Assembly: GCA_019636215.1 (NCBI GenBank)
Contig: JAHBXZ010000003.1
Location: 124,001 to 188,000, forward strand
Origin: Planctomycetota bacterium
Lineage (GTDB): Bacteria > Planctomycetota > UBA8742 > UBA2392
DNA length: 64,000 bases
Direction: 5' to 3'
Below, piece by piece: positions 10,119 through 24,106 of the stretch. The notes under the pieces are model-generated. The model saw nothing but the letters and a program-made list of their open reading frames with translations, was not told where the DNA came from and made no database searches. Made by a program: the position numbers and the translations under genes. The stretch's first letter is position 1, and each line of letters opens with the position of its first letter.

Positions 10119-11129
10119 ATGGATGAAATCAACGACAGTTGCCCTTCGTGCGCCGATAACGCCGGCCCGGCATTCGGGCCTTCGCCCGGCAACCCCAACC
10201 TGTTCATGCGCCCATACACGCCACCCACCGCCGATGACCTTGAGTCTTCCCGCCAGTTCTACGCCGCTCGTGAAGCCCGCGTAAACGAGCAACGCGAGTC
10301 TCCACGAGCCAATGAACTCACGGGTGGCGCGCAGTTCGGTAGAAACCTTTTTATTGAAAGCGCCCCCCAAGGCGCTGCCGCTGCGGTCCATCGAATCATT
10401 TCTGGTGGCGACACACCAGTGACGCCTAAGCTTACTTCGCCATGGTTCGAACCGGCCCAAGCTGGTGGTCTGGTCGACATGCAGGGCAACTACCAGATTG
10501 TCGAACTACTGGATGTGAACCCGCCAAGAATAGTGGTCGTACCAAAGAGCCAAGGCCCCCGTGATTCAGGGGCTTGGCCCGGTCGGTTCGGCGACGACAT
10601 CAAGAACTGTCAAGAGGAGTGGCCATTCCGGGTGCGGGTCGAGCACCGAGTGAACTTTGGTGAGTTCACAGTCACCTTTGAATCTCGGCTTTTCGAAAAG
10701 TTCGAAAGCGCCGACCGCGTGGCCAAGAACGCGGCCACTACCGCGCATGTAGAAACCGCAGCGCAAGCACAGGCCGACACTGTCGCGGCCAGAGTTCAAG
10801 CCGACCTAATCGCTGCAAACATCATCGCGACAGACCCTGCCAAGTGGCATGGCGACCTTCAGGCACTTGTTGACGCCAAACTTGCTGGCTTGGTCGATCC
10901 ATGCCCACGAGACTGCCCGATGCGGTATTCAATCGTCGGATGGAACGCGGAGATTGCGTCCGTCTCTGCGACGAGGCTGTCGACAAGCGCGACCACCAGA
11001 TACCAAATGGTCGATGGCATCTTGGATGGATACTACAAAGCCAATTGGACCGTATCGTTCAAAGTGGACGGACGGTACGCCGTCGATGTCTATTGCCGAT
11101 TCTACTGCTGGGGCGTCGACGAATTCTGA
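10119..11129 (+). CDS. Hypothetical protein beside the capsid-like gene
   Basis: 336 residues from ATG 10119; the frame extends further upstream but would then overlap the preceding gene. No family is recognised. The N-terminus has a CPSC pair (DSCPSCADN). The middle is a beta-rich stretch (NYQIVELLDVNPPRIVVVPKSQ), followed by an Ala-rich helical segment (residues ~200-260, AATTAHVETAAQAQADTVAA) and a second Cys pair (CPRDCPMRY). The C-terminus is beta-rich and ends in YCRFYCWGVDEF. It lies 62 nt after the capsid-like gene on the same strand with similar base composition, so the two may form one unit, perhaps phage-derived. The function is unknown. Confidence 0.5.
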   Translation: MDEINDSCPSCADNAGPAFGPSPGNPNLFMRPYTPPTADDLESSRQFYAAREARVNEQRESPRANELTGGAQFGRNLFIESAPQGAAAAVHRIISGGDTPVTPKLTSPWFEPAQAGGLVDMQGNYQIVELLDVNPPRIVVVPKSQGPRDSGAWPGRFGDDIKNCQEEWPFRVRVEHRVNFGEFTVTFESRLFEKFESADRVAKNAATTAHVETAAQAQADTVAARVQADLIAANIIATDPAKWHGDLQALVDAKLAGLVDPCPRDCPMRYSIVGWNAEIASVSATRLSTSATTRYQMVDGILDGYYKANWTVSFKVDGRYAVDVYCRFYCWGVDEF

Positions 11130-11235
11130 TCACGGACCAACACAGCTTCAATGGTGCGACATGCCACCGCAGCCGTTTCCCCCAGCTTCTCCGCACTGTC
11201 AGTGGCGCACTGAGAAATACCCCGAGGTTCAGTCC

Positions 11236-12969
11236 GTGAACAAGTGCGACTCTCGGCAAGTGATAGTGTGCGTACAACCCGTAGCTTGCAGCGGAGTCGC
11301 ACTGTTCATCGGTTTGGTGCTGTTGCTCTGCGCGTCGGCGCTGGGCGCGCAGGTACCCGGGCAGGCGTCCGACCAGGAAAGTCGTGACTCGAACCGCATT
11401 ATCAAGCTAGTTAGTCCTACCGACGCCGACATCGCTGCGCTCGAGGGGCAACACATCACTGACTTGGTAATTCATAGTCTCGGGTCGGAAAGCCTTACGG
11501 TCGCCAGTGTCAAGCGCCTGCTCTCACGAGACTCCCTGGTCAGTGTGTCGCTTATCGATGGCACATCGTTTAGGTATGATGACGTGATTGCCTCCAGCCT
11601 TCCTTCCGGGCTACTACGCCTTCAATGCGACTCCATTTTTCAGGACAGCCATCTTGTATTCATCGGCAAGTTGACTCGCCTTGCCTACCTGGACATTCGC
11701 TACTCCGGGTCGGGCAAAGGGCTGCTACATTTAAAGGAGCTGGCGTCGCTCGATAGCTTGATCATTGAGTTCAACGGCTTTTCGAATTTCGATGACATGG
11801 AACGCAGTCGCGTCGATGACAGCGCTTTGGCCCGCTTTCTAGAGAACCTGACACGCCTTCAATGCGTAGGCCTGTCGAATTCGACTTTACTAGGCAACCT
11901 GACCTGCAAAGTGCTTGCTTCCATGAAGTCGCTACAATCCCTTAGGCTACACGGCCTTTCGAGATTGAACAGCGCCGACATCGGACTCCTGTGTGCCACA
12001 AGATATCTGCAACGGCTCGAACTTAGCCATTGTGGACGTTTGACTGATGACGTGTGGGGGCATCTAGGTCGTATCCCGTCACTTATAGCTTTGTCTGTCA
12101 GGAATTGCGCCGGTCTCAGGCAAGTCTTTTTGGAGGAATTGGGAAAGGCCTCCGCCCTTCAAGAACTTGCCTTATACAACGAGCCGTCATTGCAACTCGC
12201 GCATCAACGGGAAGGTTCACCTTTGCACTTCATGATCCGCCAGGACACGACTAAAGAAAGGGACACATGCTTTCAGTTTCTTAGAACTCTCGTTCTGTCT
12301 GAGCAACCTAAGCTTGGCGATGAGGCGTTTGAGTTTCTGGCCCAAGGAAGCAGGCTTGAGAGCCTATTGTTGACACATTGCGCGATCCTTAGCGAGTCCG
12401 CACTCCATTCACTCGGCCGACATAAATCATTGAACCGACTTGAGGCTTACATGACGCCAGGCCTTTCTTCTTCGGTGTTGCAACTGCTCTTTGACAAATG
12501 CGCGCTTACTCATGTCGAACTGACCGCTGTTCAGGGGTTCGATGACGACGCGGCAGCCGCGCTTGCCGGGCGGGGAAAGTGCCATACACTAATGCTACGT
12601 AAGTGTCACCTTCTCGGTGCGAACGGTATCGCATCACTCACTTCAATTGACAAACTCCGAGTGCTTGACCGGTCGGGAAACTTGGCAGTGGATGCCACCG
12701 CATGCAAGTCGCTTGCAGCTATGAAGCAGCTCACCACGCTCAATTTAAGTGATACGCGAGTTGACGACAAGTGTGTCGAGTGGTTGGCCGCCAGCAAGTC
12801 ACTTCGCAGTCTTGGACTCGCGGGCTGTCGCGTCACAGAGTCATCGGTTCGGTTGTTTCTCTCAAAGGTTCGATTGGAGAAGTTGACGCTTTTCTCCTGT
12901 CCAGCGATTGACCGCAAGGCAGTCGACGCCCTGCGCCGAGACTTTCCGGCTTGCGACATAGGCTGGTAA
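11236..12969 (+). CDS. Secreted leucine-rich-repeat protein
   Basis: 577 residues from GTG 11236, chosen because GAGG lies ~8 nt upstream and the start gives a clean N-terminal export signal (VALFIGLVLLLCASALGAQ); an ATG at 11161 is the alternative. From residue ~90 to the end it contains about 15 LRR units of 23-28 residues (for example LQSLRLHGLSRLNSADIGLL, LQRLELSHCGRLTDDVWGHL, LTTLNLSDTRVDDKCVEWLA), of the cysteine-containing/RNI-like kind. Such proteins are usually binding scaffolds outside the cytoplasm. The DNA is less G+C-rich than the core genes, like the other accessory genes to its left. A second, shorter LRR protein is encoded at 16850-17779. The ligand is unknown. Confidence 0.72.
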   Translation: MNKCDSRQVIVCVQPVACSGVALFIGLVLLLCASALGAQVPGQASDQESRDSNRIIKLVSPTDADIAALEGQHITDLVIHSLGSESLTVASVKRLLSRDSLVSVSLIDGTSFRYDDVIASSLPSGLLRLQCDSIFQDSHLVFIGKLTRLAYLDIRYSGSGKGLLHLKELASLDSLIIEFNGFSNFDDMERSRVDDSALARFLENLTRLQCVGLSNSTLLGNLTCKVLASMKSLQSLRLHGLSRLNSADIGLLCATRYLQRLELSHCGRLTDDVWGHLGRIPSLIALSVRNCAGLRQVFLEELGKASALQELALYNEPSLQLAHQREGSPLHFMIRQDTTKERDTCFQFLRTLVLSEQPKLGDEAFEFLAQGSRLESLLLTHCAILSESALHSLGRHKSLNRLEAYMTPGLSSSVLQLLFDKCALTHVELTAVQGFDDDAAAALAGRGKCHTLMLRKCHLLGANGIASLTSIDKLRVLDRSGNLAVDATACKSLAAMKQLTTLNLSDTRVDDKCVEWLAASKSLRSLGLAGCRVTESSVRLFLSKVRLEKLTLFSCPAIDRKAVDALRRDFPACDIGW

Positions 12970-14130: not shown

Positions 14131-15087
14131 ATGCGGACGATCTTCACTGTTCTCTCGAGCTTGGCCCTGCTGGCAGGTCTCGGGATTCTGTCTCAACCTT
14201 TGAAGGCCGGGTGATGCCCCGCACCGGCGCCGTCGGCGCCGAGCGCGGGACCCACTGCCAGCCCTGCAGCCCCAGCCAAGGGTGGCGGAGGCCCCAGCGG
14301 GGCCGGTATCCAGCCCCCGAAGAAAATGCAGCGCATTGACAACCCAGCGCCAGGTGCCGGCCCGGTGGCTTCCAGCCCCGCGCCACGCCCGGCGGCCAAG
14401 CCCGAGGATCTGCCCTCGTTTGAACTTCCTTCCACGGCCGCGCTGGAACGCGCTGCGGCGGACAAGAAGCCCATCGTGGTGTACTTCCCCGGTGAAAAGG
14501 ACGATGGTTCTGCACTGGCTCACCCGGACATCGCGTTTCTCAGCAAGAACAGCGCGCTGTTCATCAAGGTCCCCTTCAACGCCAACCGCGAAAAGGATCC
14601 TTGGGATGTTGGGTCTGTCGTGCCGACCAGCAAGCTTCTCAGTGACAACCCATCGCGTGAGTACGGCGTCAAGGTCGGCCGCGAGACCGTGATTGTGACC
14701 GACAGCTGGGGTAACGACTTCTTCCGCTTCGAAAAGGCGCCGTCCGCAGAGGAACTGCGCTCGTCCATCAAGAAGGTGTCCGACAAAGTCGACAGTGCCA
14801 ACAAGAAGCTGCAGAAGACCTACGACGCCGCCAAGGCGGCCTGGGACAAGAACGACCGCAGCAACGCACTGAAGTCGGTGCTGAAAAACTTCAAGGAAGG
14901 CCTGGTCGGGCTGGAGGCACAGCAGAACTCCATCAGCCTGTACCACGAGATCATGGATGCAGCCCGCGCCAGCATCAGCGATATGGCCGGCAAGGGCGAC
15001 AAAGAAGCACTGAAGGGCATTGCCAAGGAACTGAAAGGAACTGACGCGGCCAAGGATGCAGAGGCCGCCCTGGCAAAGCTGAAGTAA
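14131..15087 (+). CDS. Exported selenoprotein, thioredoxin-like fold, Sec-Cys motif
   Basis: 318 residues if the in-frame TGA at 14212-14214 is read as selenocysteine (U28), followed by Cys29. The start ATG 14131 lies 6 nt after GGAG. Residues 1-27 are a signal peptide (MRTIFTVLSSLALLAGLGIL...), so the U-C pair would be at or near the mature N-terminus outside the cytoplasm. A Pro/Ala/Gly linker follows, then a thioredoxin-like domain (~95-215): strand KKPIVVYFPG with no CxxC, FIKVPFNANRE, the family signature PTSKLLSDNPSR and ETVIVTDSWGNDFFRF. The C-terminal third is helical (LKSVLKNFKEGLVGLEAQQN). It is the first of five paralogs. Evidence for Sec: the same TGA position in four copies, Cys in the fifth, a SECIS-like hairpin, and nearby selA and tRNA-Sec. 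The redox role is inferred. Stop TAA. Confidence 0.85.
14218..14249 (+). promoter_or_regulatory. SECIS-like hairpin of Sec gene 1
   Basis: Inside the coding region, just after the TGA at 14212-14214. Lower stem CCCGC (14218-14222) with GCGGG (14245-14249), a small internal loop, then an upper stem of 7 bp (14225-14231 with 14235-14241) closed by a GTC triloop at 14232-14234. The loop begins 18 nt after the TGA, the spacing and G-U loop expected of bacterial SECIS elements bound by SelB. Confidence 0.7.
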
Positions 15088-15137
15088 CCACAAGTGTGCA
15101 AGGTTTGCCGGCATAGCCCAGCCCGGCAAACTTAAGA

Positions 15138-15167
15138 GGAGGGGCCCCTACCGCACCGGGCCCCTCC
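15138..15167 (+). terminator. Hairpin terminator after Sec gene 1
   Basis: GGAGGGGCCC (15138-15147) is perfectly complementary to GGGCCCCTCC (15158-15167) with a 10-nt loop. A TTCAAGTTT tract follows. It ends the first gene and lies 46 nt before the next start. Confidence 0.7.
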
Positions 15168-15213
15168 TTCAAGTTTCTGGTGTCCGCCCCCCCACGCAGT
15201 TCTGGAGACTGCC

Positions 15214-16098
15214 ATGCAACTCAAGCTGAAACTGATGACAGGCGCGCTGGCTTTCGCCCTTGCGGGCATTGCCGCGCAGCCGCTTGCCGCGCAGTGATGA
15301 GGCGGTGGAGGCGGGGGCGGTGCCTCCGCGAAACCAATCCAGCGCGCACCCGCGCAACCAGCACCTGTGCGTCCTGTGGCCCCGCGCCCGGTGATCGCCC
15401 CGGCGTGGGAGAAAGCCTCCAGCGCGGCGCTGGACCGCGCCGCATCCACCAAGATGCCGCTGGTGATCTTCTTTGCCGATGAACGCGACGACGCCGCACC
15501 GTTTGCGGACCAGGACTTTGTCGACATGGCCAGCAAGGACGCCGTGTTCGTGAAGATCCCCTACACGTCGATCCGCGATAAGGCGCCAAACGCCGATGAC
15601 AGCGTGATCCCGACCAGCAAGCTGCTGGGCGACAACCCTTCGCGCGACTACAAGATTCCAGTCGGCAAGATGACGCTGATCCTGGCCGATTGCCACGGCA
15701 ATGAGTACTTCCGCCTGACCAGTGTGCCCAAGGCCAAGGAGCTCAAGGCCTCGCTGGACAAGATTCCAGCCCAGATGGAAAAGGCCGAAGGCCGGCTGCG
15801 CAAGTCCTACGACGCCGCCAAGGCTGCCTGGGACAAAGACGACCAGGCAAATGCCCTGAAGCCGATTCTCAAGAACTTCAAGGAAGGCCTGGTCGGGTTG
15901 GACGCCCAGCAGGACACCATCACGCTGTACAACCAGATACTCGAGACTGGCCTTTCCAAAGTGCGCAAGGCTCACGAGCGCGGCGATATGGACGCCCTGA
16001 AGGGCCTGAGCAAGGACTTCAAGGGAACGTCAGTCGGCAAGGCCGCCGACGATGCCCTGAAGAACCCGGTTGCGAAGGTCACCCCCAGCAGCAAGTAA
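15214..16098 (+). CDS. Exported selenoprotein, thioredoxin-like fold, Sec-Sec motif
   Basis: 294 residues reading two consecutive in-frame TGA codons (15295-15300) as selenocysteines U28-U29. ATG 15214 follows GGAG by 7 nt. The signal peptide is MQLKLKLMTGALAFALAGIA..., ending QPLAAQ directly before the UU pair. A seven-Gly run and a Pro/Ala linker lead to the thioredoxin-like domain: MPLVIFFADERDD (no CxxC), FVKIPYTSIRD, IPTSKLLGDNPSRDY, MTLILADCHGNEYFRL. A helical tail follows (ALKPILKNFKEGLVGLDAQQD). Without recoding, translation would end at a signal peptide alone while a 260-codon conserved frame continues, so recoding is the simplest reading. It has its own ribosome site and lies between two terminators. 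An export or surface redox function is inferred. Stop TAA. Confidence 0.87.
15311..15329 (+). promoter_or_regulatory. SECIS-like hairpin of Sec gene 2
   Basis: Eight base pairs (GCGGGGGC 15311-15318 with GCCTCCGC 15322-15329, one G-U) closed by a GGT triloop at 15319-15321. The loop starts 19 nt after the second TGA, the same register as the GGUCU loop in E. coli fdhF. It is coding sequence at the same time (Gly-rich linker). Confidence 0.75.
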
Positions 16099-16121
16099 CC
16101 CGTTGCGGTTGCCTCAAACAG

Positions 16122-16149
16122 ACACGCCGCCGGATATCCGGCGGCGTGT
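16122..16149. terminator. Bidirectional terminator between Sec gene 2 and sodB
   Basis: A perfect inverted repeat of 14 bp per arm (ACACGCCGCCGGAT and its complement), followed by TGTTGTATTG on the plus strand. It lies between two convergent genes (plus-strand stop at 16098, minus-strand stop at 16168) and can serve both. Confidence 0.8.
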
Positions 16150-16167
16150 TGTATTGATGGGTCATGG

Positions 16168-16761
16168 CTACTTGCCGCCGGCGGCTTCATAGTTCTTGGC
16201 CGCGAAGTCCCAGTTGGCCAGGCTGGCCAGGAAAGTGTCCAGGAACTTGGCCCTAGCGTTGCGGTAGTCAATGTAATACGCGTGTTCCCACACATCGCAG
16301 GTCAGGATCGGCGTCGCGCCGCCCTTGAGCGGGCATTCGGCGTTGGCGCTCTTGGCTACTTCCAGCTTGCCGTTCTTCAGCACCAGCCAGGCCCAGCCGC
16401 TCCCGAACTGGGTCATGCCGGCCTCGTGAAACTTCTTCTTGAAGTCGTCAAAGCTGCCAAAGTCGCGCGTGATCGCCGCGGCCAATGCGCCCGTGGGCGC
16501 GCCGCCGCCGCCCGGCTTCATGCAGCTCCAGTAGAATGTGTGGTTCCACACCTGGGCGGCCTGGTTGAACAGCGGGCCTTCAGTGGTCTTGATCAGGTCT
16601 TCCAACGACTTGCTGCCTTCGGGCTTGCCGGCGGTCAGCTCGTTCAGCTTGTCCAGGTAGGCCTTGTGGTGCTTGCCGAAGTGAAAGTCAAAGTGTTCGG
16701 CCGAAAGGTGCGGTGCCAGGGCGTCCTTGGCGTAGGGCAGCGCGGGCTGTTCAAAAGGCAT
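16168..16761 (-). CDS. sodB: Superoxide dismutase (Fe type)
   Basis: 197 residues from ATG 16761, preceded by AAGGAG at the right distance. It dismutates superoxide to peroxide and oxygen. It follows E. coli SodB closely: FEQPALPYAKDALAPHLSAE at the start; the metal ligands in HFGKHH, VWNHTFYW and DVWEHAYYIDYRNAR; and the Gln in AAQVWNHTFYW, which is the FeSOD rather than MnSOD position. QFGSGWAWL is the usual core. No signal peptide, so it is cytoplasmic. It sits on the minus strand inside the selenoprotein family, convergent with Sec gene 2 and tail-to-head after the LRR gene. Its place beside putative redox selenoproteins hints at a shared oxidative-stress theme, which is an inference. Confidence 0.94.
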   Translation of the reverse strand: MPFEQPALPYAKDALAPHLSAEHFDFHFGKHHKAYLDKLNELTAGKPEGSKSLEDLIKTTEGPLFNQAAQVWNHTFYWSCMKPGGGGAPTGALAAAITRDFGSFDDFKKKFHEAGMTQFGSGWAWLVLKNGKLEVAKSANAECPLKGGATPILTCDVWEHAYYIDYRNARAKFLDTFLASLANWDFAAKNYEAAGGK

Positions 16762-16849
16762 CGTGATCTCCTTGGGTTGCTTGGTGTTTGCGTCAACGGG
16801 CGCCATTTATAAAGGAAATGCTTTCCAAAGCAACGGGCCGCCCGGGGCA

Positions 16850-17779
16850 TCAGCGTGCGACTTTCAACTTGGGCAATGCCTCGCGCAACGCCTTGATTCC
16901 GCCATCGGTAACCTTGGGGCACTTCTTCAGGGAGAGGCTTTCCAGCTTCGGAAGCTCCTTCAGGTGGGCCAGCCCGGCATCGGTGATGTCAGGACAGGAA
17001 TCCAAGGTCAACGATTTCAGCGCGAGCAGGGACTTCAAAGTTTCCAGTCCCTTGTCAGTCACCTTGGCGCAGTGCGCCAGGGTAATGTTGCGCAGGGCTG
17101 GCAGGCCCTTGAGGTGGGTCAGGCCTTTGTCGCTGATTTCGGTGCAGCCGGTCAACAGCAGTGATTCAAGCTTCTTCATGTCGCTGAGGTGGGCAAGAGC
17201 CGCGTCGGTCAGCTTGGGGCACACCCCCAGGTTCAGAAACTCCAGCAGCTTCATGCCGGCAAGGTGCTTGATGCCGGCGTCGGTCAGCCGGTCGCAGGCA
17301 CCCAGGTTGAGCCACTTCATCGCCGTCAGCTCTTTCAGGTGAACAAGCCCGGCATCAGTGATCTGGCGGCATTGAAACATCTCCAGCCTTTCCAGACCCT
17401 TCAACCCGGCCAGATGCTCCAGCCCGGCATCCGTGACAGAAAGTCCGTCCAGGCAAAGGTCGCGCAGATCCGTGTGGTCCTTCAAGTTTGCGATGCCGGC
17501 GTCGGTGATTGCCTTGGCAGGATTCAGCTCCATCTTTCGCACACGCCGCATGTCCTTGACTTGCTCGAGTCCTGCGTCTGTCAGGTCTTTGCCGGCCTTG
17601 AACGTGATGGTCTGGTCTCGGACCAACTTCACTTCGGTGCCGGGTTTCAGGACGTCGTTGTAAAGCTTGAACTCGCCCGGGATGTCCGGAATGGTCACCA
17701 GCACATCCTGCGCGGCCTGGCCGTGAAGACTGACAGAGAGCACCGCGATCACACCGGCAAGCAGCAGACGTATGGTCAT
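16850..17779 (-). CDS. Secreted leucine-rich-repeat protein
   Basis: 309 residues. The signal peptide MTIRLLLAGVIAVLSVSLHG is followed by a short beta region (VLVTIPDIPGEFKLYNDVL) and about ten LRR units of 24-25 residues with the repeating DAGLxHLxxLxxLExLxLxxC pattern (for example LTDAGIKHLAGMKLLEFLNL, ITDAGLAHLKELPKLESLSL). This is the cysteine-containing LRR type common in secreted planctomycete proteins. It is probably a binding scaffold outside the cytoplasm. It lies upstream of sodB on the same strand with an 88-nt gap, so co-transcription is possible. No enzymatic motif is seen. Confidence 0.8.
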   Translation of the reverse strand: MTIRLLLAGVIAVLSVSLHGQAAQDVLVTIPDIPGEFKLYNDVLKPGTEVKLVRDQTITFKAGKDLTDAGLEQVKDMRRVRKMELNPAKAITDAGIANLKDHTDLRDLCLDGLSVTDAGLEHLAGLKGLERLEMFQCRQITDAGLVHLKELTAMKWLNLGACDRLTDAGIKHLAGMKLLEFLNLGVCPKLTDAALAHLSDMKKLESLLLTGCTEISDKGLTHLKGLPALRNITLAHCAKVTDKGLETLKSLLALKSLTLDSCPDITDAGLAHLKELPKLESLSLKKCPKVTDGGIKALREALPKLKVAR

Positions 17780-18227
17780 GGATCCCCCGAACCAGGTTTC
17801 GCCAAAGGCCTGCCGGATTTTATCCCCTAGCCGCCGTCGGGCTAAATCGATTCGCGAGTGGCCGGCAGGTTTCTGCCGCCATCGCGGTGAGGGCTGCGTT
17901 CTGTTTCACGTATTCGAGAACGCGTAGGGTTGCCCTATCTCAGTTGCGATGTCCTGCAGTCGAGTGCAGAGGAATTGTCGAGGCTTCGGCCAGGTGCTTC
18001 AAACAGGTCGTTTCATGGCACTACGGCCTGTTTTTGCACACTTCGCACACAGGCTAGCTGACTTGGCGACAGGTTGGACGCCTGAAGGGTGGGGCGTCAC
18101 AAGCCGAAAAGTATATGGGTTTTCCGTGAAAGTTGCGCGTAAGAAGCATAGGCTTTACCCCACAGATTCGGTGCAGGTGCGACTGCATACAACAATTGGC
18201 CGTTCTTACATCTCTGGAGGATGTGAA
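17780..18227 (+). other. Long gap upstream of Sec gene 3 with a terminator-like hairpin
   Basis: No gene is seen in these 448 nt. A 9-bp stem (18002-18010 with 18024-18032) and a run of five T (18031-18035) on the plus strand form a possible terminator ~190 nt before the start of Sec gene 3. It could end a small RNA or act as an attenuator in a long leader. A small hairpin at 18171-18188 and a strong ribosome site (GGAGG, 18216-18220) follow. Confidence 0.45.
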
Positions 18228-19100
18228 ATGAACCGCAACGCCGTATTGGCGCTGGCCGCTACCGGAGCCTTCGCGCTCGCCGGTATCATGGCTCAGCCGC
18301 TCGCAGCACAGTGATGAACGGGTGCAAATAAGGTCGGCCGTGTTGCCGCCCCACCTCGTCCCGTTCAACCCGCCCGTCCGGATCCCACCAAGGTTCCGAA
18401 CTGGGGCCAGCCCACCAAGCAGGCGCTTGAAAACGCCGCGCTTGAAAAGCGCCCGATCGTCCTGTTCTTCCAGGGCGAAGGTGCTGAATACGGTGATTTC
18501 TACGTTTACGGCGACGACTACGCTGCGCTGGCCCGCGACAACGCGGTGTTCATGCGCATCGCCTACAACGAAAACCGCGACAAGGCACCCGCCAGCGAAA
18601 GCCCGGTTCCTGTCTCCAAGCTTCTTTCGGAGAACCCGGCACGCGACTACAACGTGCCCGCCGGCAAGCCTCTGTTTGTGGTTGCCGACTGGTTCGGCAA
18701 CAGCTACTTCCGCAGCGACCGCAAGCCGTCGGCCGCAGAACTTAAGCAGATGATCGACAAAGTCCCCGGAAAGGTTGAGGACAGCAACAAGAAGCTGGCC
18801 AAGACCTACGACGCAGCCAAGGCGTCCTGGGATAAGTCCGACCGCACTAACGCCTTGAAGTCGCTGCTCAAGAACTTCAAGGAAGACGTTGTCGGCCTGG
18901 ATGCCCAGGAAAGCAGCATCCGCCTGTACCACGAGATTCTTGATGCCACCCGCAACAAGATGAACGAGTTGCATGAAAAGGGTGACATTGAGGGCCTGAA
19001 GGGTCTTGCCAAGGAAATGAAGGGCACTGAAGTGGCCAAGGAAATCGACGCGGCCATCAAGAGCCCCACCGCCCGCAAGACACAGGAAGGCAAGAACTAG
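18228..19100 (+). CDS. Exported selenoprotein, thioredoxin-like fold, Sec-Sec motif
   Basis: 290 residues reading the adjacent TGA codons at 18312-18317 as U29-U30. ATG 18228 follows GGAGG. The signal peptide (MNRNAVLALAATGAFALAGI) ends QPLAAQ, as in paralog 2. The linker here is short and not Gly-rich (TGANKVGRVAAPP). The thioredoxin-like domain shows RPIVLFFQGEG (no CxxC), FMRIAYNENRDK, VPVSKLLSENPARDY and KPLFVVADWFGNSYFRS. The helical tail carries LKSLLKNFKEDVVGLDAQES and IRLYHEILDATR. It is the least canonical member at the recoding site because its downstream hairpin is weak. It is monocistronic, with a strong terminator after the TAG stop. The same reasoning for Sec applies as for the other paralogs. 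Confidence 0.83.
18320..18351 (+). promoter_or_regulatory. Weak SECIS candidate of Sec gene 3
   Basis: GGG-T-GCAA (18320-18327) can pair with TTGC-CG-CCC (18343-18351), leaving a 15-nt loop that contains GGTC at 18332-18335. The stem is shorter and less stable than in the other copies, so this assignment is tentative. Confidence 0.35.
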
Positions 19101-19117
19101 TTCCAAGCAAGATTGAG

Positions 19118-19158
19118 ACCGGCAAGGCCTGACGGCCTTGCCGGTTTTGTTTTTTTTT
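19118..19158 (+). terminator. Strong intrinsic terminator after Sec gene 3
   Basis: A perfect 12-bp stem (ACCGGCAAGGCC 19118-19129 with GGCCTTGCCGGT 19134-19145) with a TGAC loop, followed by TTTTGTTTTTTTTT. This is the clearest rho-independent terminator in the window. Confidence 0.93.
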
Positions 19159-19426
19159 CCGGAGTCGGTGGTATGGATTCAGGATTCGCTTCCACCTATG
19201 AGATAACCCAAGGCTCACACATGTTCACCCAAGGCTTTCGACTGCCTTTCCGTTGAGTGGCGACCGGCTGTATGGCGGTCCGCCAGACATGTGTGCTCTA
19301 GCCCATCCTGAGCGTCCTTCCATCCAGCATGCCCGTGTGGTCGCCTTTCCGCGGTATGCGGTCGTGTTTCAAAGCAGGTGCGGAAGTTGACGTTTGCTGG
19401 GTAAGCAAACAACGGAGGATGTATCC
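19159..19426 (+). other. Leader of the Cys paralog with a hairpin before the ribosome site
   Basis: No gene is seen. A 9-bp inverted repeat (CACACATGT 19216-19224, ACATGTGTG 19287-19295) flanks the middle of the gap. A hairpin (GTTTGCT 19392-19398 with AGCAAAC 19404-19410) stands directly before the ribosome site GGAGG and the ATG at 19427. Confidence 0.4.
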
Positions 19427-20383
19427 ATGCGTTACGTTTGGCATTTCCTTACCGCCCTCGTTCTGATGGCGGGCATGTCGCCGGCACTGCTTGCGCAGTG
19501 TTCTGGCGGAAGCTGCGGCACAGGTGGCGGGTGCAGCAGCGGCGGTTGCGGTACAGGCAGCTCGTCCGGTGGGTGCCCCACCGGCGGATGCCCGTCGGCC
19601 GGCGGTGGCGGAGGCGTGCCGGCCCCCAAGAAGATGGGCGGCATTGCTGCCAAGCCGCAGCCCGTTACCTCGGGCGGTGCAGCCCCGGCAAAGTTGGATC
19701 CGGCCAAGGTTCCGTCTTGGGCCCCGATTTCGGGCACCACGCTGGAAAACGCGGCCAAGGAACAGCTGCCTGTGGTTGTCTACTTTCCCGCTGAGAACGA
19801 ATCAGATGCCACGTTCTACGGGGAAGACCTTGCCAAGTTGAGCAAGGAAAAGGCTGTATTCGTGAAGGTTCCTTTCAACGCCGATCGTGAAAAGAGCGTG
19901 TTTGATGAGGCGGTTGTCCCGACCAGCAAACTGCTGAGCGACAACCCCAGCCGCGACTACGGCATCGCCGTGGGCAAGGCCACGCTGATCGTCTGCGACT
20001 GGTTCGGCAACGAACACAACCGCTTCACGGCCGGCATCAAGGCCCCTGAACTTGCTACCTTCATCGACAAGGTGAAGGCCAAGGCAGAGGACCGCAACAA
20101 GAAGCTGCAGAAGAACCTTGATGCAGCCAACACTGCCTGGACCAAGCAGGACCGCAAGGCCGCACTGGCGGCCATCCTGAAGAACTTCAAGGACGACGTG
20201 GTCGGCCTTGACGCCCAGGAAGGAAGCATCCGCCTGTACCACGAGATCATGGACGCAGCCAAGAGCCAGATCTCCGAGATGGTCAGCAAGGGCGACAAAG
20301 ACGGGCTCAAGAACCTGTCCAAGGAGCTCAAGGGTACTGACGCAGCCAAAGCTGCAACGGAAGCCCTCAAGAAGCTGAGCTAG
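19427..20383 (+). CDS. Exported thioredoxin-like-fold protein, cysteine paralog of the Sec family
   Basis: 318 residues from ATG 19427 (GGAGGA ~8 nt upstream). It is a full-length paralog of the four TGA-containing genes, with no in-frame stop: after the signal peptide (MRYVWHFLTALVLMAGMSPALLAQ) the Sec-Sec position reads Cys25-Ser26. Five further cysteines follow within ~30 residues in a Gly/Ser-rich segment (CSGGSCGTGGGCSSGGCGTG, then GGCPTGGC), which could be a metal- or disulfide-rich site. The thioredoxin-like domain matches the family: LPVVVYFPAENES, FVKVPFNADREK, VPTSKLLSDNPSRDY, ATLIVCDWFGNEHNRF. The tail has LAAILKNFKDDVVGLDAQEG. Cys replacing Sec at the homologous site is the classic sign that TGA encodes Sec in the paralogs. 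Stop TAG. Confidence 0.85.
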   Translation: MRYVWHFLTALVLMAGMSPALLAQCSGGSCGTGGGCSSGGCGTGSSSGGCPTGGCPSAGGGGGVPAPKKMGGIAAKPQPVTSGGAAPAKLDPAKVPSWAPISGTTLENAAKEQLPVVVYFPAENESDATFYGEDLAKLSKEKAVFVKVPFNADREKSVFDEAVVPTSKLLSDNPSRDYGIAVGKATLIVCDWFGNEHNRFTAGIKAPELATFIDKVKAKAEDRNKKLQKNLDAANTAWTKQDRKAALAAILKNFKDDVVGLDAQEGSIRLYHEIMDAAKSQISEMVSKGDKDGLKNLSKELKGTDAAKAATEALKKLS

Positions 20384-20402
20384 GCTTCATGACAAGAATG
20401 TG

Positions 20403-20428
20403 ACATGGGGTGCACAAGCACCCCATGT
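20403..20428 (+). terminator. Hairpin after the Cys paralog
   Basis: A perfect 11-bp stem, ACATGGGGTGC (20403-20413) with GCACCCCATGT (20418-20428), loop ACAA, 20 nt after the stop. There is no T-run, so it may act as a terminator or as an mRNA 3' end stabiliser. Confidence 0.55.
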
Positions 20429-20614
20429 TGCATTGAACTCATGACGTAAATGTGACAAACACTCCCTGGCAGCAATGAATGAACAAGCCGGTTAGCAATC
20501 CGTTGTTACTTGGACTTCATCTGTAAGCAACCGTACAATTCAGCGCACTCATAAACGGTGCGAGTTCATGAGGCAGAAGTCGACCAACGCTGTCGAACTT
20601 TTCTGGAGGAACCC

Positions 20615-21574
20615 GTGAAGGTAAACGGATCCAAGGCGCTTATCGCCCTTGGCGCAATTGCGCTGATGGGTGTAATGGCGCAACCCCTTGCGGCACAGTG
20701 ATGAGGCGGCGGCGGCGGGGGAGGTTCCCCTGCAGGTGGTGGCGCTGCTCCGGCAGCGGGTGGCGGTGGCGGCGGAGGTGGTGCCGGCATCAAGCCCCCG
20801 ACCAAGTTGGGTAAAGTAGAAGCTCCGCAGCCGGGCACAGGCGGCGCCCCAATGGGCCCCGCACGTCCGAGCATCAACCCGGCCGACATTCCCGGCTGGC
20901 AGACTCCGTCCAGCAAGGCCCTGGAAACAGCCGCGGCGCAGAACTTGCCGCTGGTGATTTACTTCCCCGGCGAGAGCGACGGCGACGCCAGTTGGATGGG
21001 CCGCGAGTTGGCCGAGATGGCCAAGAAAGACGCGATTTTCATCCGCATTCCGTACAACGCCGATCGCGAAAAATCGGTGTTTGACGAGTCATTGATCCCG
21101 ACATCCAAACTGCTGTCGGACAACCCCAGCCGCGACTACAAGGTTCCCGTCGGCAAAGCGACCGTACTGGTTGCCGACAGCTGGGGTAACGAGTACTTCC
21201 GGTTTGCCACCCCGCCGAAGCACCCGGATCTGAAGGGCGCGGTGGACAAGGTCTCCGACAAGGTCGACGGCACCAACAAGAAGCTGCAGAAGACCTATGA
21301 TTCGGCCAAGGCCGCCTGGGAGAAGAAGGACGCAACCGCAACGCTGGCTGCCATCCGCAAGAACTTCAAGGAAGGCGTTGTCGGCGTGGCACCGCAGGAA
21401 GAGACCATCCGCCTGTACCACGAGTTGATGGACTCTGTGCGTTCTGACGTAAAGGGGCTTGCCGAAAAGGGTGGAGCCGATGCCGACAAGCAGTTGAAGT
21501 CGATGAAGAACACCTACAAGGGCACCGCAGTGGCCAAGGACATTGACGAGGCCATTTCCGGGCTCAAGAAGTAG
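20615..21574 (+). CDS. Exported selenoprotein, thioredoxin-like fold, Sec-Sec motif
   Basis: 319 residues from GTG 20615, chosen because GGAGGA lies ~6 nt upstream and the frame then gives a complete signal peptide (MKVNGSKALIALGAIALMGVMAQPLAAQ). Two adjacent TGA codons (20699-20704) give U29-U30. The linker holds two poly-Gly tracts. The domain shows LPLVIYFPGESDG (no CxxC), FIRIPYNADREK, IPTSKLLSDNPSRDY and ATVLVADSWGNEYFRF; the tail has LAAIRKNFKEGVVGVAPQEE. The signal end QPLAAQ-UU is identical to paralogs 2 and 3. Its SECIS-like hairpin is the best in the set. The stop is TAG, followed by a hairpin and then selA 81 nt downstream, so this gene stands next to the machinery that would decode it. 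Confidence 0.88.
20715..20733 (+). promoter_or_regulatory. SECIS-like hairpin of Sec gene 5
   Basis: Eight base pairs (GCGGGGGA 20715-20722 with TCCCCTGC 20726-20733, one G-U) closed by GGT at 20723-20725. The loop begins exactly 19 nt after the second TGA, as in gene 2 and in E. coli fdhF. The nucleotide sequence differs from gene 2 while the fold and register are kept. Confidence 0.77.
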
Positions 21575-21588
21575 TATCAGCCGCATCC

Positions 21589-21617
21589 CGACGGCCGGCG
21601 CATTGCGCCGGCCGTCG
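21589..21617 (+). terminator. Hairpin between Sec gene 5 and selA
   Basis: A perfect 13-bp stem (CGACGGCCGGCGC 21589-21601 with GCGCCGGCCGTCG 21605-21617) and ATT loop, followed by TACTTTC. It probably ends the Sec gene transcript; selA begins 39 nt later and may depend on read-through or its own promoter. Confidence 0.75.
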
Positions 21618-21655
21618 TACTTTCAGGCCTGCCCCATCGCTGGTAGAGTGCCCCC

Positions 21656-23047
21656 ATGGCCCCCAAAACCGCGACATCATCGCTGCGCGACCTGCCCAAG
21701 GTAGACGCGCTGGTCGGCCACCCGGACGCGGCCGGGCTCGTGGCTGCCTACGGGCGGGCGCTGGTCACCACCGAGATCCGCGCCGAGATTGAACTCCTGC
21801 GCCATCGCATACGTGAAGGAAACGGCGGGGATGTCCGTGCTGAAGCCGTGATAGCCGCAACCCGCAGCCGCCTGGAGCGCCTGCATACACCCAACCAGTG
21901 CCGCGTAATCAATGCCACGGGCGTTATCCTGCACACCAGCCTGGGCCGCGCACCTCTGGCGCCTTCGGTGATGGCGGCAGCGGCCCGGCAATCAGCCCAG
22001 TACAGCCTGCTGGAACTTGACCGCGAGTCCGGCAAGCGCAGCGACCGCGACAAACTTGTGGCCGACCTGGTATGCCGCGTCACCGGCGCCGAAGCTGCCA
22101 CTGTGGTGAACAATAACGCCGCGGCCACGATGATCATCCTCAATACCATGGCCGAGGGGCGCGAAGTGGTGTGTTCGCGCGCGCACATGGTTGAGATCGG
22201 CGGCAGCTATCGCATGCCCGATGTCATGCGCAAAGCGGCCTGCCATCTGGTCGAAATCGGTACTACCAACAAGACCCGTGCGGCGGACTACGAACAGGCA
22301 ATCACAGACCGGACCGCCATGTTGTTGAAAGTCCACACCAGCAACTACGCGATTGTGGGCTTTACGGAAATGGCTTCGCTGGAAGAACTGGTAGAAGTCG
22401 GCCGCCGCCGCAAGGTGCCCGTGGTGTACGACCTTGGCGCTGGCAGCCTGGTGGACCTGAAGCCTTTCGGCATCACCCGCGAACCCAGTGTGCCGGAGTT
22501 GATCAGGCAGGGGGCTGACCTGGTCTGCTTCAGCGGCGACAAGCTGTTTGGCGGCCCGCAGGCAGGCATCATTGTCGGCCGCAAAGACCTTGTGGCCGCA
22601 GTGAAGAAGAACGCGCTGTTCCGCATGATGCGCTGCGACAAGGTGACACTCAGCCTGCTCGAGCACACCCTGAGGCTCTACCTTGACCCGGCCCGAGCAC
22701 TCGAAGAAGTGCCGACACTGAACCTGATCAGCCGCAGCGCCGCCGAATGCGCCCGTGCCGCCCGCGCCATCTGTGCGCGCCTGAAGAAGCGCGGAATCGC
22801 CGCCGAAACCCGCGAAAGCCGCAGCCAGATCGGCGGTGGCAGCACGCCCGGCGACGACCTGCCCACCACCGTTGTCGTGATCAAGAGCCTGGGGGGCACA
22901 CCGGACGCCGCTGCCAGACGCCTGCGCATGGGCACACCCAGTGTGTTCTGCCGCATTGAAGAAGACTCCCTGGTGTTTGACCCCCGCACCGTGCTGCAGG
23001 GCCAGATCATGGAATTGGTCTCTGCCATCACGGCCCAGCGCAAGTGA
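21656..23047 (+). CDS. selA: L-seryl-tRNA(Sec) selenium transferase (selenocysteine synthase)
   Basis: 463 residues, the normal SelA length. It converts seryl-tRNA(Sec) to selenocysteinyl-tRNA(Sec) with selenophosphate, in the cytoplasm. Visible: the N-terminal domain (SSLRDLPKVDALV), the core INATGVILHTSLGRAPL, VVNNNAAATMIIL, EIGGSYRMPDVM, VHTSNYAIVGF and the PLP-binding Lys in CFSGDKLFGGPQAGIIVG. It ends with TGA, showing that TGA still works as a stop without a SECIS signal. The stop overlaps the following glycosyltransferase start by 4 nt. tRNA-Sec lies 760 nt downstream and the TGA-containing paralogs lie directly upstream. selB and selD, also needed, are not present here. The assignment is secure. 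Confidence 0.97.
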   Translation: MAPKTATSSLRDLPKVDALVGHPDAAGLVAAYGRALVTTEIRAEIELLRHRIREGNGGDVRAEAVIAATRSRLERLHTPNQCRVINATGVILHTSLGRAPLAPSVMAAAARQSAQYSLLELDRESGKRSDRDKLVADLVCRVTGAEAATVVNNNAAATMIILNTMAEGREVVCSRAHMVEIGGSYRMPDVMRKAACHLVEIGTTNKTRAADYEQAITDRTAMLLKVHTSNYAIVGFTEMASLEELVEVGRRRKVPVVYDLGAGSLVDLKPFGITREPSVPELIRQGADLVCFSGDKLFGGPQAGIIVGRKDLVAAVKKNALFRMMRCDKVTLSLLEHTLRLYLDPARALEEVPTLNLISRSAAECARAARAICARLKKRGIAAETRESRSQIGGGSTPGDDLPTTVVVIKSLGGTPDAAARRLRMGTPSVFCRIEEDSLVFDPRTVLQGQIMELVSAITAQRK

Positions 23048-23745
23048 CCGAGCAACTCACCGTTGTGCTGCCCACGCTCAATGAAGCTGGCAACATTGGC
23101 CCGCTGATTACCGACCTGCGTGCGGCCTTCGACGGCGCCCTGGCCGAAGTGATTGTGATCGACGGCCACAGCAAGGACGAAACGCAGCAGCAGGCCGCAG
23201 CCGCCGGGGCGCGCGTGATCGCCGACGACAAGGGTTACGCCCGCGCACTGCAGATCGGCATGGCTGAGGCCAGAACCACGTTTGTGATGGTGCTGGACGC
23301 CGACGGCAGCCACCGGGCGCAGGACGCCCTGAAACTGTGGGCTGCGCGCGAGAGTGCCGACCTTGTGATCGGCTCGCGCCTGGTCGCCGGCGGAGGCAGC
23401 GACGGCGCGGCCTATCGAAGGGCCTTGAGTAACGTACTGGCGGGCCTGTTTTCGCTGTTCGCGCGGCTGCCAGCCCGGGACATCAGCAGTGGCTTTCGGC
23501 TGTACCGGCGCGAAATGTTCACGGACATGACACTGGCTGCGCGCTTCTTTGAGGTTCAGCCGACACTGCTGGCACACGGCGTGGGCAAGGGCGCGCGGGT
23601 CAAGGAGGTGGGCATCCATTACCATCAGCGCGGCACGGGGCGCAGCAAGAACCGCATCCTGAAGTACGGCTGGGCGTTCTTGCGGTGTTTGTGGCGGCTG
23701 CGCCGAGAGGCCAGACGGCGTGACAAACCCGTGAAACCCGCTTGA
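23044..23745 (+). CDS. Family 2 glycosyltransferase (polyprenyl-phosphate sugar synthase type)
   Basis: 233 residues starting at GTG 23044, overlapping the selA stop (GTGA). GT-A motifs: VVLPTLNEAGNIGPLI, EVIVIDGHSKDET, ARVIADDKGYARALQIG and MVLDADGSH (a DxD-like metal site). A later IGSRLVAGG and a SSGFRLYRREMF region match dolichol-phosphate mannose synthase-like enzymes, which move a sugar from a nucleotide donor to a polyprenyl phosphate at the membrane. It lacks the C-terminal membrane segments of some relatives. The overlap suggests translation coupled to selA, though a functional link to selenium is not apparent. The family is clear; donor and acceptor are unknown. Confidence 0.85.
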   Translation: MTEQLTVVLPTLNEAGNIGPLITDLRAAFDGALAEVIVIDGHSKDETQQQAAAAGARVIADDKGYARALQIGMAEARTTFVMVLDADGSHRAQDALKLWAARESADLVIGSRLVAGGGSDGAAYRRALSNVLAGLFSLFARLPARDISSGFRLYRREMFTDMTLAARFFEVQPTLLAHGVGKGARVKEVGIHYHQRGTGRSKNRILKYGWAFLRCLWRLRREARRRDKPVKPA

Positions 23746-23805
23746 ACACGGCGGTTCCAGCGTGTGGCCCCTGTTACGCGGAATCTGGTTTGATATAAAA
23801 GCCCC

Positions 23806-23898
23806 GGGAGCAGATAGGCGCCTGGTGGGCCTCCTGGTCTTCAAAACCGGTGTGACCTGAACGGGTCAGGTGGGTTCGATTCCCATGTGCTCCCGCCA
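23806..23898 (+). tRNA. selC: tRNA-Sec (anticodon TCA)
   Basis: 93 nt including the encoded CCA. The acceptor arm pairs GGGAGCA with TGCTCCC; position 8 is a G-G mismatch where bacterial tRNA-Sec normally has an eighth pair. The anticodon arm is CTGGT-CTTCAAA-ACCGG with TCA at 23841-23843. The long variable arm pairs TGACC with GGTCA. The T arm is GTGGG-TTCGATT-CCCAT. The extra-long variable arm and TCA anticodon separate it from all ordinary tRNAs. A TATAAA box (23794-23799) just upstream is a possible -10. Confidence 0.95.
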
Positions 23899-24106
23899 AC
23901 TTTCCCACGGCGGACTTCATCGATAACCGATCCAGCGCTCCGCTTACGGGCGCAGTCGCCCGCGTTGGCGCGGGCTTGGTGCGCCCTGCTGCGCGCCCGT
24001 GACAGTCCACTGGACTGTCACGGGGTTCGATTCCCATGTGCTCCCGCCAACTTTCCCACGGCGGACTTCATCGATAGCCGACCCGGCGCTCCGCTTACGG
24101 GCGCAG
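23872..24106 (+). repeat. Direct repeat that duplicates the 3' end of tRNA-Sec
   Basis: 84 nt at 23872-23955 recur at 24023-24106 with only three differences. Each copy starts in the T arm of tRNA-Sec and includes the 3' acceptor strand, CCA and ~55 nt of downstream DNA. Between them, directly before the second copy, is an 11-bp hairpin (23998-24008 with 24012-24022, loop ACT). The second copy is thus a hairpin joined to a tRNA-Sec 3' half with no acceptor 5' strand. Either a tandem duplication or a relic of an integration event at the tRNA 3' end would give this. Confidence 0.9.

Follow-up and report, generated by a model that had tools for sequence, protein, structure and literature searches.

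The stretch of DNA considered here, a window of 64,000 nucleotides (nt) from a Planctomycetota bacterium (positions 124,001 to 188,000 of contig JAHBXZ010000003.1, GenBank assembly GCA_019636215.1), contains a cluster of five paralogous genes, all on the forward strand between positions 14131 and 21574. In four of the five an in-frame TGA stands immediately behind the signal peptide, once as TGA-TGC and three times as TGA-TGA; the fifth has Cys-Ser (Table 1). Past the first TGA the reading frame runs on for 261–290 further codons and then ends in TAA or TAG, in good agreement with the conserved frame of 260–290 codons given in a preliminary description of the locus, whose positions for the four TGA sites are also exact. 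The signal peptides end in QPLAAQ, QPLKAG or ALLAQ and are followed by a Gly- or Pro-rich linker and by a domain of about 230 residues that is common to all five paralogs; the others are 44–49% identical to paralog 1. Paralog 5 starts with a GTG codon (20615). A terminator-like hairpin with a 16-bp stem and a T run (19114-19149) lies downstream of the full-length paralog 3 frame; terminator-like sites overall barely exceed those in shuffles (14 versus 11.1). The genome of the window, referred to as G000, is an incomplete assembly of 3.99 Mb in 34 contigs (91% complete), and a profile of the five paralogs matches it at seven places. Two members with TGA in the place of selenocysteine (Sec, U) lie outside the window, one with adjacent UGAs (G000:C7:44094-45086) and one with three (about G000:C1:458308-458943), giving the genome a total of 12 UGAs over six genes.

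Table 1. Features of the locus, with further loci that are referred to in the text
Feature	Position	Strand	Remarks
Paralog 1	14131..15087	+	Signal peptide, TGA-TGC 14212-14217, Gly/Pro-rich linker, thioredoxin-like domain
SECIS-like hairpin, paralog 1	14225..14241	+	7-bp stem, GTC loop
Paralog 2	15214..16098	+	TGA-TGA 15295-15300
SECIS-like hairpin, paralog 2	15311..15329	+	8-bp stem; GGT loop starts at 24 nt (first TGA) and 21 nt (second TGA)
Fe/Mn superoxide dismutase gene	16168..16806	-	Adjoins the array
Paralog 3	18228..19100	+	TGA-TGA 18312-18317
Interrupted hairpin, paralog 3 (weak)	18332..18350	+	Unbroken 5-bp stem not found
Paralog 4	19427..20383	+	Cys-Ser 19499-19504, Cys-rich tail, TGA-free
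Paralog 5	20615..21574	+	TGA-TGA 20699-20704; used for structure prediction
SECIS-like hairpin, paralog 5	20715..20733	+	8-bp stem; GGT loop starts 21 nt from the second TGA
selA (Sec synthase)	21656..23047	+	PF03841, E 5e-140
Glycosyltransferase family 2 gene	23044..23745	+	Between selA and tRNA-Sec
tRNA-Sec	23806..23898	+	Anticodon TCA; ARAGORN; Rfam 73 bits versus gathering score 47
Eight tips without Sec or Cys (script offsets)	L066:2828, L073:2720, L082:388, L087:1943, L063:364, L068:5838, L059:2433, L059:6453
Three-UGA loci of the sister group	L053 (G000:C1), L062, L080, L090, L118-L124

The five-paralog profile matches 19 of 60 genomes, namely all 16 examined from one Planctomycetota family (here termed f1, which includes G000) and, weakly, three others (G016, G024 and G031). 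A wider scan of 392 genomes of the phylum gave 21, made up of the 16 from f1 and five weak matches outside it, and all 13 relatives that come from named records belong to metagenome-assembled genomes labelled ‘Planctomycetota bacterium’. From 82 matched open reading frames (ORFs) a comparison set of 75 members was retained after removal of four scoring below 60 bits (L060, one ORF of L084, L088 and L089), of a 90-residue fragment at a contig edge (L063) and of two ORFs without a signal peptide-like segment (L084 and L091). There are three to seven compared members per genome, many of them tandem paralogs. At the tip, 60 of the 75 carry one to three UGAs each (101 in total), and seven are Cys-rich and free of UGA, providing Cys homologs at the Sec place alongside the mixed variants. 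Written with U for Sec, the motifs of the 60 Sec members are UU in 25, UC in 21, UC followed by a later U in two, and others such as CU, UxxU and UxxxxU in the remaining 12.

Several observations bear on whether the UGA codons are translated. Over the 60 codons that precede the thioredoxin core, 78 homologous ORFs contain 69 in-frame stops, every one of which is TGA; neither TAA nor TAG occurs there in any of the 78. Coding sequence is conserved at the protein level on both sides of the in-frame UGA, and the ratio of nonsynonymous to synonymous substitution rates (dN/dS), calculated after Nei and Gojobori with our own script between G000 and the sister genome G001 over five pairs of orthologs (the Cys pair included), is 0.28 for the signal peptide, 0.16 for the linker that follows the UGA and 0.13 for the domain. 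UU and UC have been exchanged in at least ten steps on a tree of 68 domains, those of the 75 members that score at least 150 bits. The DNA pattern of the UU site recurs at seven places in three of 16 genomes, always within genes of the family, and its reversed control gave no match in the 16. On the computational evidence the UGA codons are almost certainly decoded as Sec.

Candidate Sec insertion sequence (SECIS) elements lie behind the UGAs, typically as short, GC-rich hairpins that often have 8 bp in the stem and GGU in the loop. With spacing measured from the first nucleotide of a UGA, 12 of the 25 UU genes have the loop starting at 24 nt relative to the first UGA and hence at 21 nt relative to the second, and among the 23 genes with UC it starts at 21 nt in ten, at 24 nt in seven and elsewhere in six. 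Since both spacings occur with a single UGA, one hairpin offers each of two paired UGAs a spacing that is in use. The apical-loop GGU of the Escherichia coli fdhF element likewise starts at a spacing of 21 nt; unlike that element, the hairpins of the present family often have an unbroken 8-bp stem with a triloop, and in the UU genes there is one hairpin for two UGAs. Stems of at least 7 bp with a triloop placed 20, 21 or 24 nt past the last UGA are found in 27 of the 60 genes, compared with a mean of 2.5 and a maximum of 7 of 60 genes when the same rule is applied to synonymous-codon shuffles (n = 1000). A wider stem rule gives 35 of 60 genes compared with no more than 12 in any of 300 synonymous shuffles, and finds a stem in one of the seven Cys paralogs. 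Fixed-place stems and synonymous shuffles were used because bulk folding energy is a poor test for SECIS elements in GC-rich Gly codons. Each of the six loop-nearest pairs is seen in two to four types across 30 stems (22 distinct hairpins); as these were preselected for at least six pairs, only the variety of the pairs is informative. Of the genes in the window, paralogs 1, 2 and 5 have an unbroken stem, that of paralog 3 being broken.

The machinery for Sec incorporation is encoded in the same genome. The placing of selA and tRNA-Sec near the paralogs in the earlier account is upheld by the Pfam match of the former and by the detection of the latter with both ARAGORN and Rfam, and selB and selD, which it had left to be sought elsewhere in the genome, are also present. 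SelB (C33:53631-54701) scores 323 bits, above the cut-off, and SelD scores 391 bits and has a TGA of its own as the Sec codon in HGAGUGCK, so that SelA, SelB, SelD and tRNA-Sec are all accounted for in G000. SelB is found above the cut-off in 42 of the 60 genomes, 15 of them among the 16 of f1 and 27 outside it; the sole f1 genome without such a match (G013) is 86% complete. As SelB is common outside f1, the paralog family does not explain the use of Sec in the phylum. Within the window, the 3′ end of tRNA-Sec and its flank are duplicated (23872-24106) as two copies of 84 nt that are 96% alike and 151 nt apart, and between them ARAGORN predicts an odd tRNA (23948-24045); the duplication may have been left behind by an insertion at the tRNA.

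Pattern counts place a signal peptidase I-like motif exactly one residue ahead of the first Sec or Cys in 53 of the 60 Sec members, and cleavage at this point would put Sec at position 2 of the mature protein, as Q-U-U or G-U-C. Anchoring as a lipoprotein was considered and rejected, a strict lipobox being present in none of the 60; one Cys paralog (L081) has LSAC. The predicted model of paralog 5 shows a thioredoxin fold with long disordered tails. None of 39 aligned rows has CxxC at the place of the thioredoxin active site, and [CU]xx[CU] is absent from the last 215 residues of all 75 members. The second-ranked Foldseek match is the chaperedoxin YbbN/CnoX, which joins a thioredoxin domain to a helical repeat domain, with a TM-score of 0.24–0.27 and a root-mean-square deviation of 17 over the whole model, and none of the structure matches listed covers the C-terminal helices. 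The predicted arrangement of signal peptide, flexible linker and thioredoxin-like fold is thus borne out by the pattern counts, the model and the structure matches.

A sister group of shorter proteins (about 230 residues) carries three UGAs in the arrangement U-x-S-U, 10–12 residues, U-G-Q in 11 of 12 loci from 12 genomes; no in-frame signal peptide was found for the twelfth (L091). The UGAs directly follow AFA, AFG, AYG, ASA or VHG, so that Sec is possibly residue 1 of the mature protein, and none of the 11 three-UGA loci has Cys in place of Sec. Four of these loci are already among the 75 compared members, and adding the other seven brings the count to 67 Sec genes and 122 UGAs. Outside f1, a weak homolog in G016, a genome of another family in the same order, has a TGA at its tip (L089, AGUGAGGC / AGUGAGGCRGG), which implies that the selenium-tip layout may be older than f1. 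Four loci of the comparison (L052, L058, L071 and L087) represent a second, separate UU/UC locus, flanked by genes for an isochorismatase-like protein and a PPC-domain protein.

Among the neighbours of the array, which were annotated for chosen genes only, selA adjoins it in 15 of the 16 f1 genomes (the exception being G011), and the glycosyltransferase gene is present in the same 15. tRNA-Sec lies near the array in 13 of the 16; the stretches from G003 and G006 stop just past the glycosyltransferase gene. The superoxide dismutase gene is found beside the array in 14 of the 16, the others being G001 and G005, the contig of which starts inside the array, and such a neighbour fits a role in oxidative stress. 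A DsbD-type membrane domain (DsbD_TM) is encoded in all 16 genomes. MerA is found above the curated cut-off in none of them, and the matches below it that occur in all 16 (up to 357 bits versus 454) look like other flavoprotein disulfide reductases. Genes for leucine-rich-repeat proteins lie inside the array of the window (16850-17779) and ahead of it (10849-12969); for the former, no counterpart was found close to the array in the remaining loci compared. In one locus (L097:14611-18372) tRNA-Sec is followed by genes for an ATP-binding cassette transporter (BPD_transp_1 and a phosphonate-binding, PhnD-like protein), relatives of which occur in seven and six loci, respectively; this transporter could import a selenium oxyanion.

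Searches of family databases and of the literature are in line with the earlier account, which knew of no described family with this layout. None of the five paralogs has a Pfam match above the cut-off, the nearest being Thioredoxin_7 for paralog 5 (E 0.25), and for 39 members NCBIfam 20.0 gave only weak matches, to an autotransporter model in two (best E 7.7e-5) and to TsoB in three (best E 0.023). A protein search returned at least 85 relatives among the best 7992 candidates scored; such names as are given are hypothetical proteins, many rows being nameless, and one relative carries the Pfam domain PF13098. Among the open-licence papers listed by literature searches, no description of this family was found. 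According to the available part of a 2026 review, the vast majority of the 119 prokaryotic selenoprotein families have a single Sec, and a UU motif is not listed in its family table (PMC13188914); nor does the stem ‘Planctomycet’ occur in the available text of that review or of two further papers (PMC12013277; PMC9312934). In Table 1 of the review, as far as it is available, the SaoC (motif CU, a Cys-Sec end), MbdU and KCU-star families resemble the present proteins in that Sec adjoins Cys close to the end of the chain or in a protein linked to metals, but their motif is CU rather than UU and tandem Sec at a mature N-terminus is listed for none of them (PMC13188914). Thioredoxin, the gamma domain of DsbD and DsbH differ in that the present domain is free of CxxC in 39 of 39 rows, shares 10–15% identity with them and has its reactive residues on an N-terminal tail. 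Mammalian thioredoxin reductase, a cytosolic or mitochondrial flavoprotein, ends in a Gly-Cys-Sec-Gly tail. It shares with the window family a Sec-containing vicinal chalcogen pair on a flexible terminal arm; here, however, the tip is N-terminal, predicted to be exported and often Sec-Sec, and a flavin domain is absent.

It is quite probable, judging from the comparisons above, that f1 evolved an exported array in which one SECIS element serves two UGAs to yield Sec-Sec at mature residues 2-3, or in the sister group Sec at residue 1, on a Gly tether ahead of a CxxC-free thioredoxin fold, encoded beside selA and tRNA-Sec. As to function we lean, with rather less assurance, towards exported selenoproteins in which the Sec-Sec or Sec-Cys tip on its flexible linker is a mobile redox arm for the CxxC-free thioredoxin-like domain. 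One or two UGAs behind the signal peptide would be read as Sec, a single hairpin serving both UGAs of the pair genes, the second at a spacing of 21 nt and the first at 24 nt, and signal peptidase I would cut one residue before the first Sec. Outside the cytoplasm the pair might then cycle between selenols and a diselenide or selenylsulfide, be re-reduced via a DsbD-type membrane carrier and reduce peroxides or disulfides as part of a defence against oxidative stress. A number of observations weigh against this picture. Eight of the 75 members lack both Sec and Cys at the tip; the expectation that homologs would keep UGA or Cys at the site thus holds for 67 of the 75 and fails for these eight, which implies that the tip is not universal and that the domain serves some purpose in its absence. 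The z-scores of bulk folding are modest (mean -0.9, with 26 of 60 genes below -1), a simple 6-bp stem is absent from the searched range in 17 of 60 genes, and paralog 3 of the window offers only its broken stem. The occurrence of SelB in 27 genomes outside f1 means that adjacency to selA is unnecessary for the use of Sec as such, and the superoxide dismutase, having no obvious signal peptide, is likely cytoplasmic and so on the other side of the membrane from the exported proteins. The Cys-rich paralogs, whose corresponding tail has at least four Cys, would be just as compatible with metal binding.

This last point belongs to the main rival of the redox arm, a trap for soft metals or metalloids in which two vicinal selenolates on the tether would capture extracytoplasmic Hg, Ag, Cu or Cd and the domain would be a scaffold. 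Mercury enzymes are known that end in vicinal Cys or in Cys-Sec, and vicinal chalcogens on a Gly-rich tether are what such a trap would present; we nevertheless think it rather unlikely, given that the conserved neighbour is a superoxide dismutase gene, that MerA does not exceed its cut-off in any of the 16 genomes and that no metal transporter is found among the conserved neighbours annotated. Tandem paralogs, three to seven per genome, with an export signal and long disordered tails might alternatively be joined by diselenide or selenylsulfide bonds between copies into a structural layer of the cell envelope, but a linker protein would not need a conserved thioredoxin fold, and with eight of 75 tips devoid of Sec and Cys such cross-linking appears improbable. 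That the proteins store or carry selenium in the manner of mammalian selenoprotein P is very improbable: proteins with up to three Sec, 12 UGAs in six genes of G000 and an adjacent selA are in keeping with it, yet most members have one or two Sec per approximately 300 residues, the position being fixed and mostly vicinal, which storage would not require. It is extremely improbable that TGA acts as an ordinary stop, leaving a short signal-peptide fragment and a domain that is either expressed from an internal start or decayed. Public records do start many of these genes after the TGA, as hypothetical proteins of 200–260 residues; against this reading stand the 69 of 69 upstream stops that are TGA, the dN/dS of 0.16 directly behind it, the Cys homologs that continue through the site and the hairpins at the place of a SECIS element.

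On this evidence the exported proteins of f1 would constitute a new selenoprotein family, new in its tandem UGAs and in the N-terminal place of its Sec residues. The database entries inspected start after the UGA or are labelled hypothetical, so that the selenium tip has been overlooked. Adjacent UGA codons occur in 25 of the 60 compared Sec genes of a single lineage, alongside single-UGA and Cys paralogs, and provide a natural series for the study of how one SECIS element serves two adjoining UGAs and of what is gained by a second Sec over a Cys. The family would, in addition, clearly exemplify exported proteins whose mature N-terminus bears Sec.

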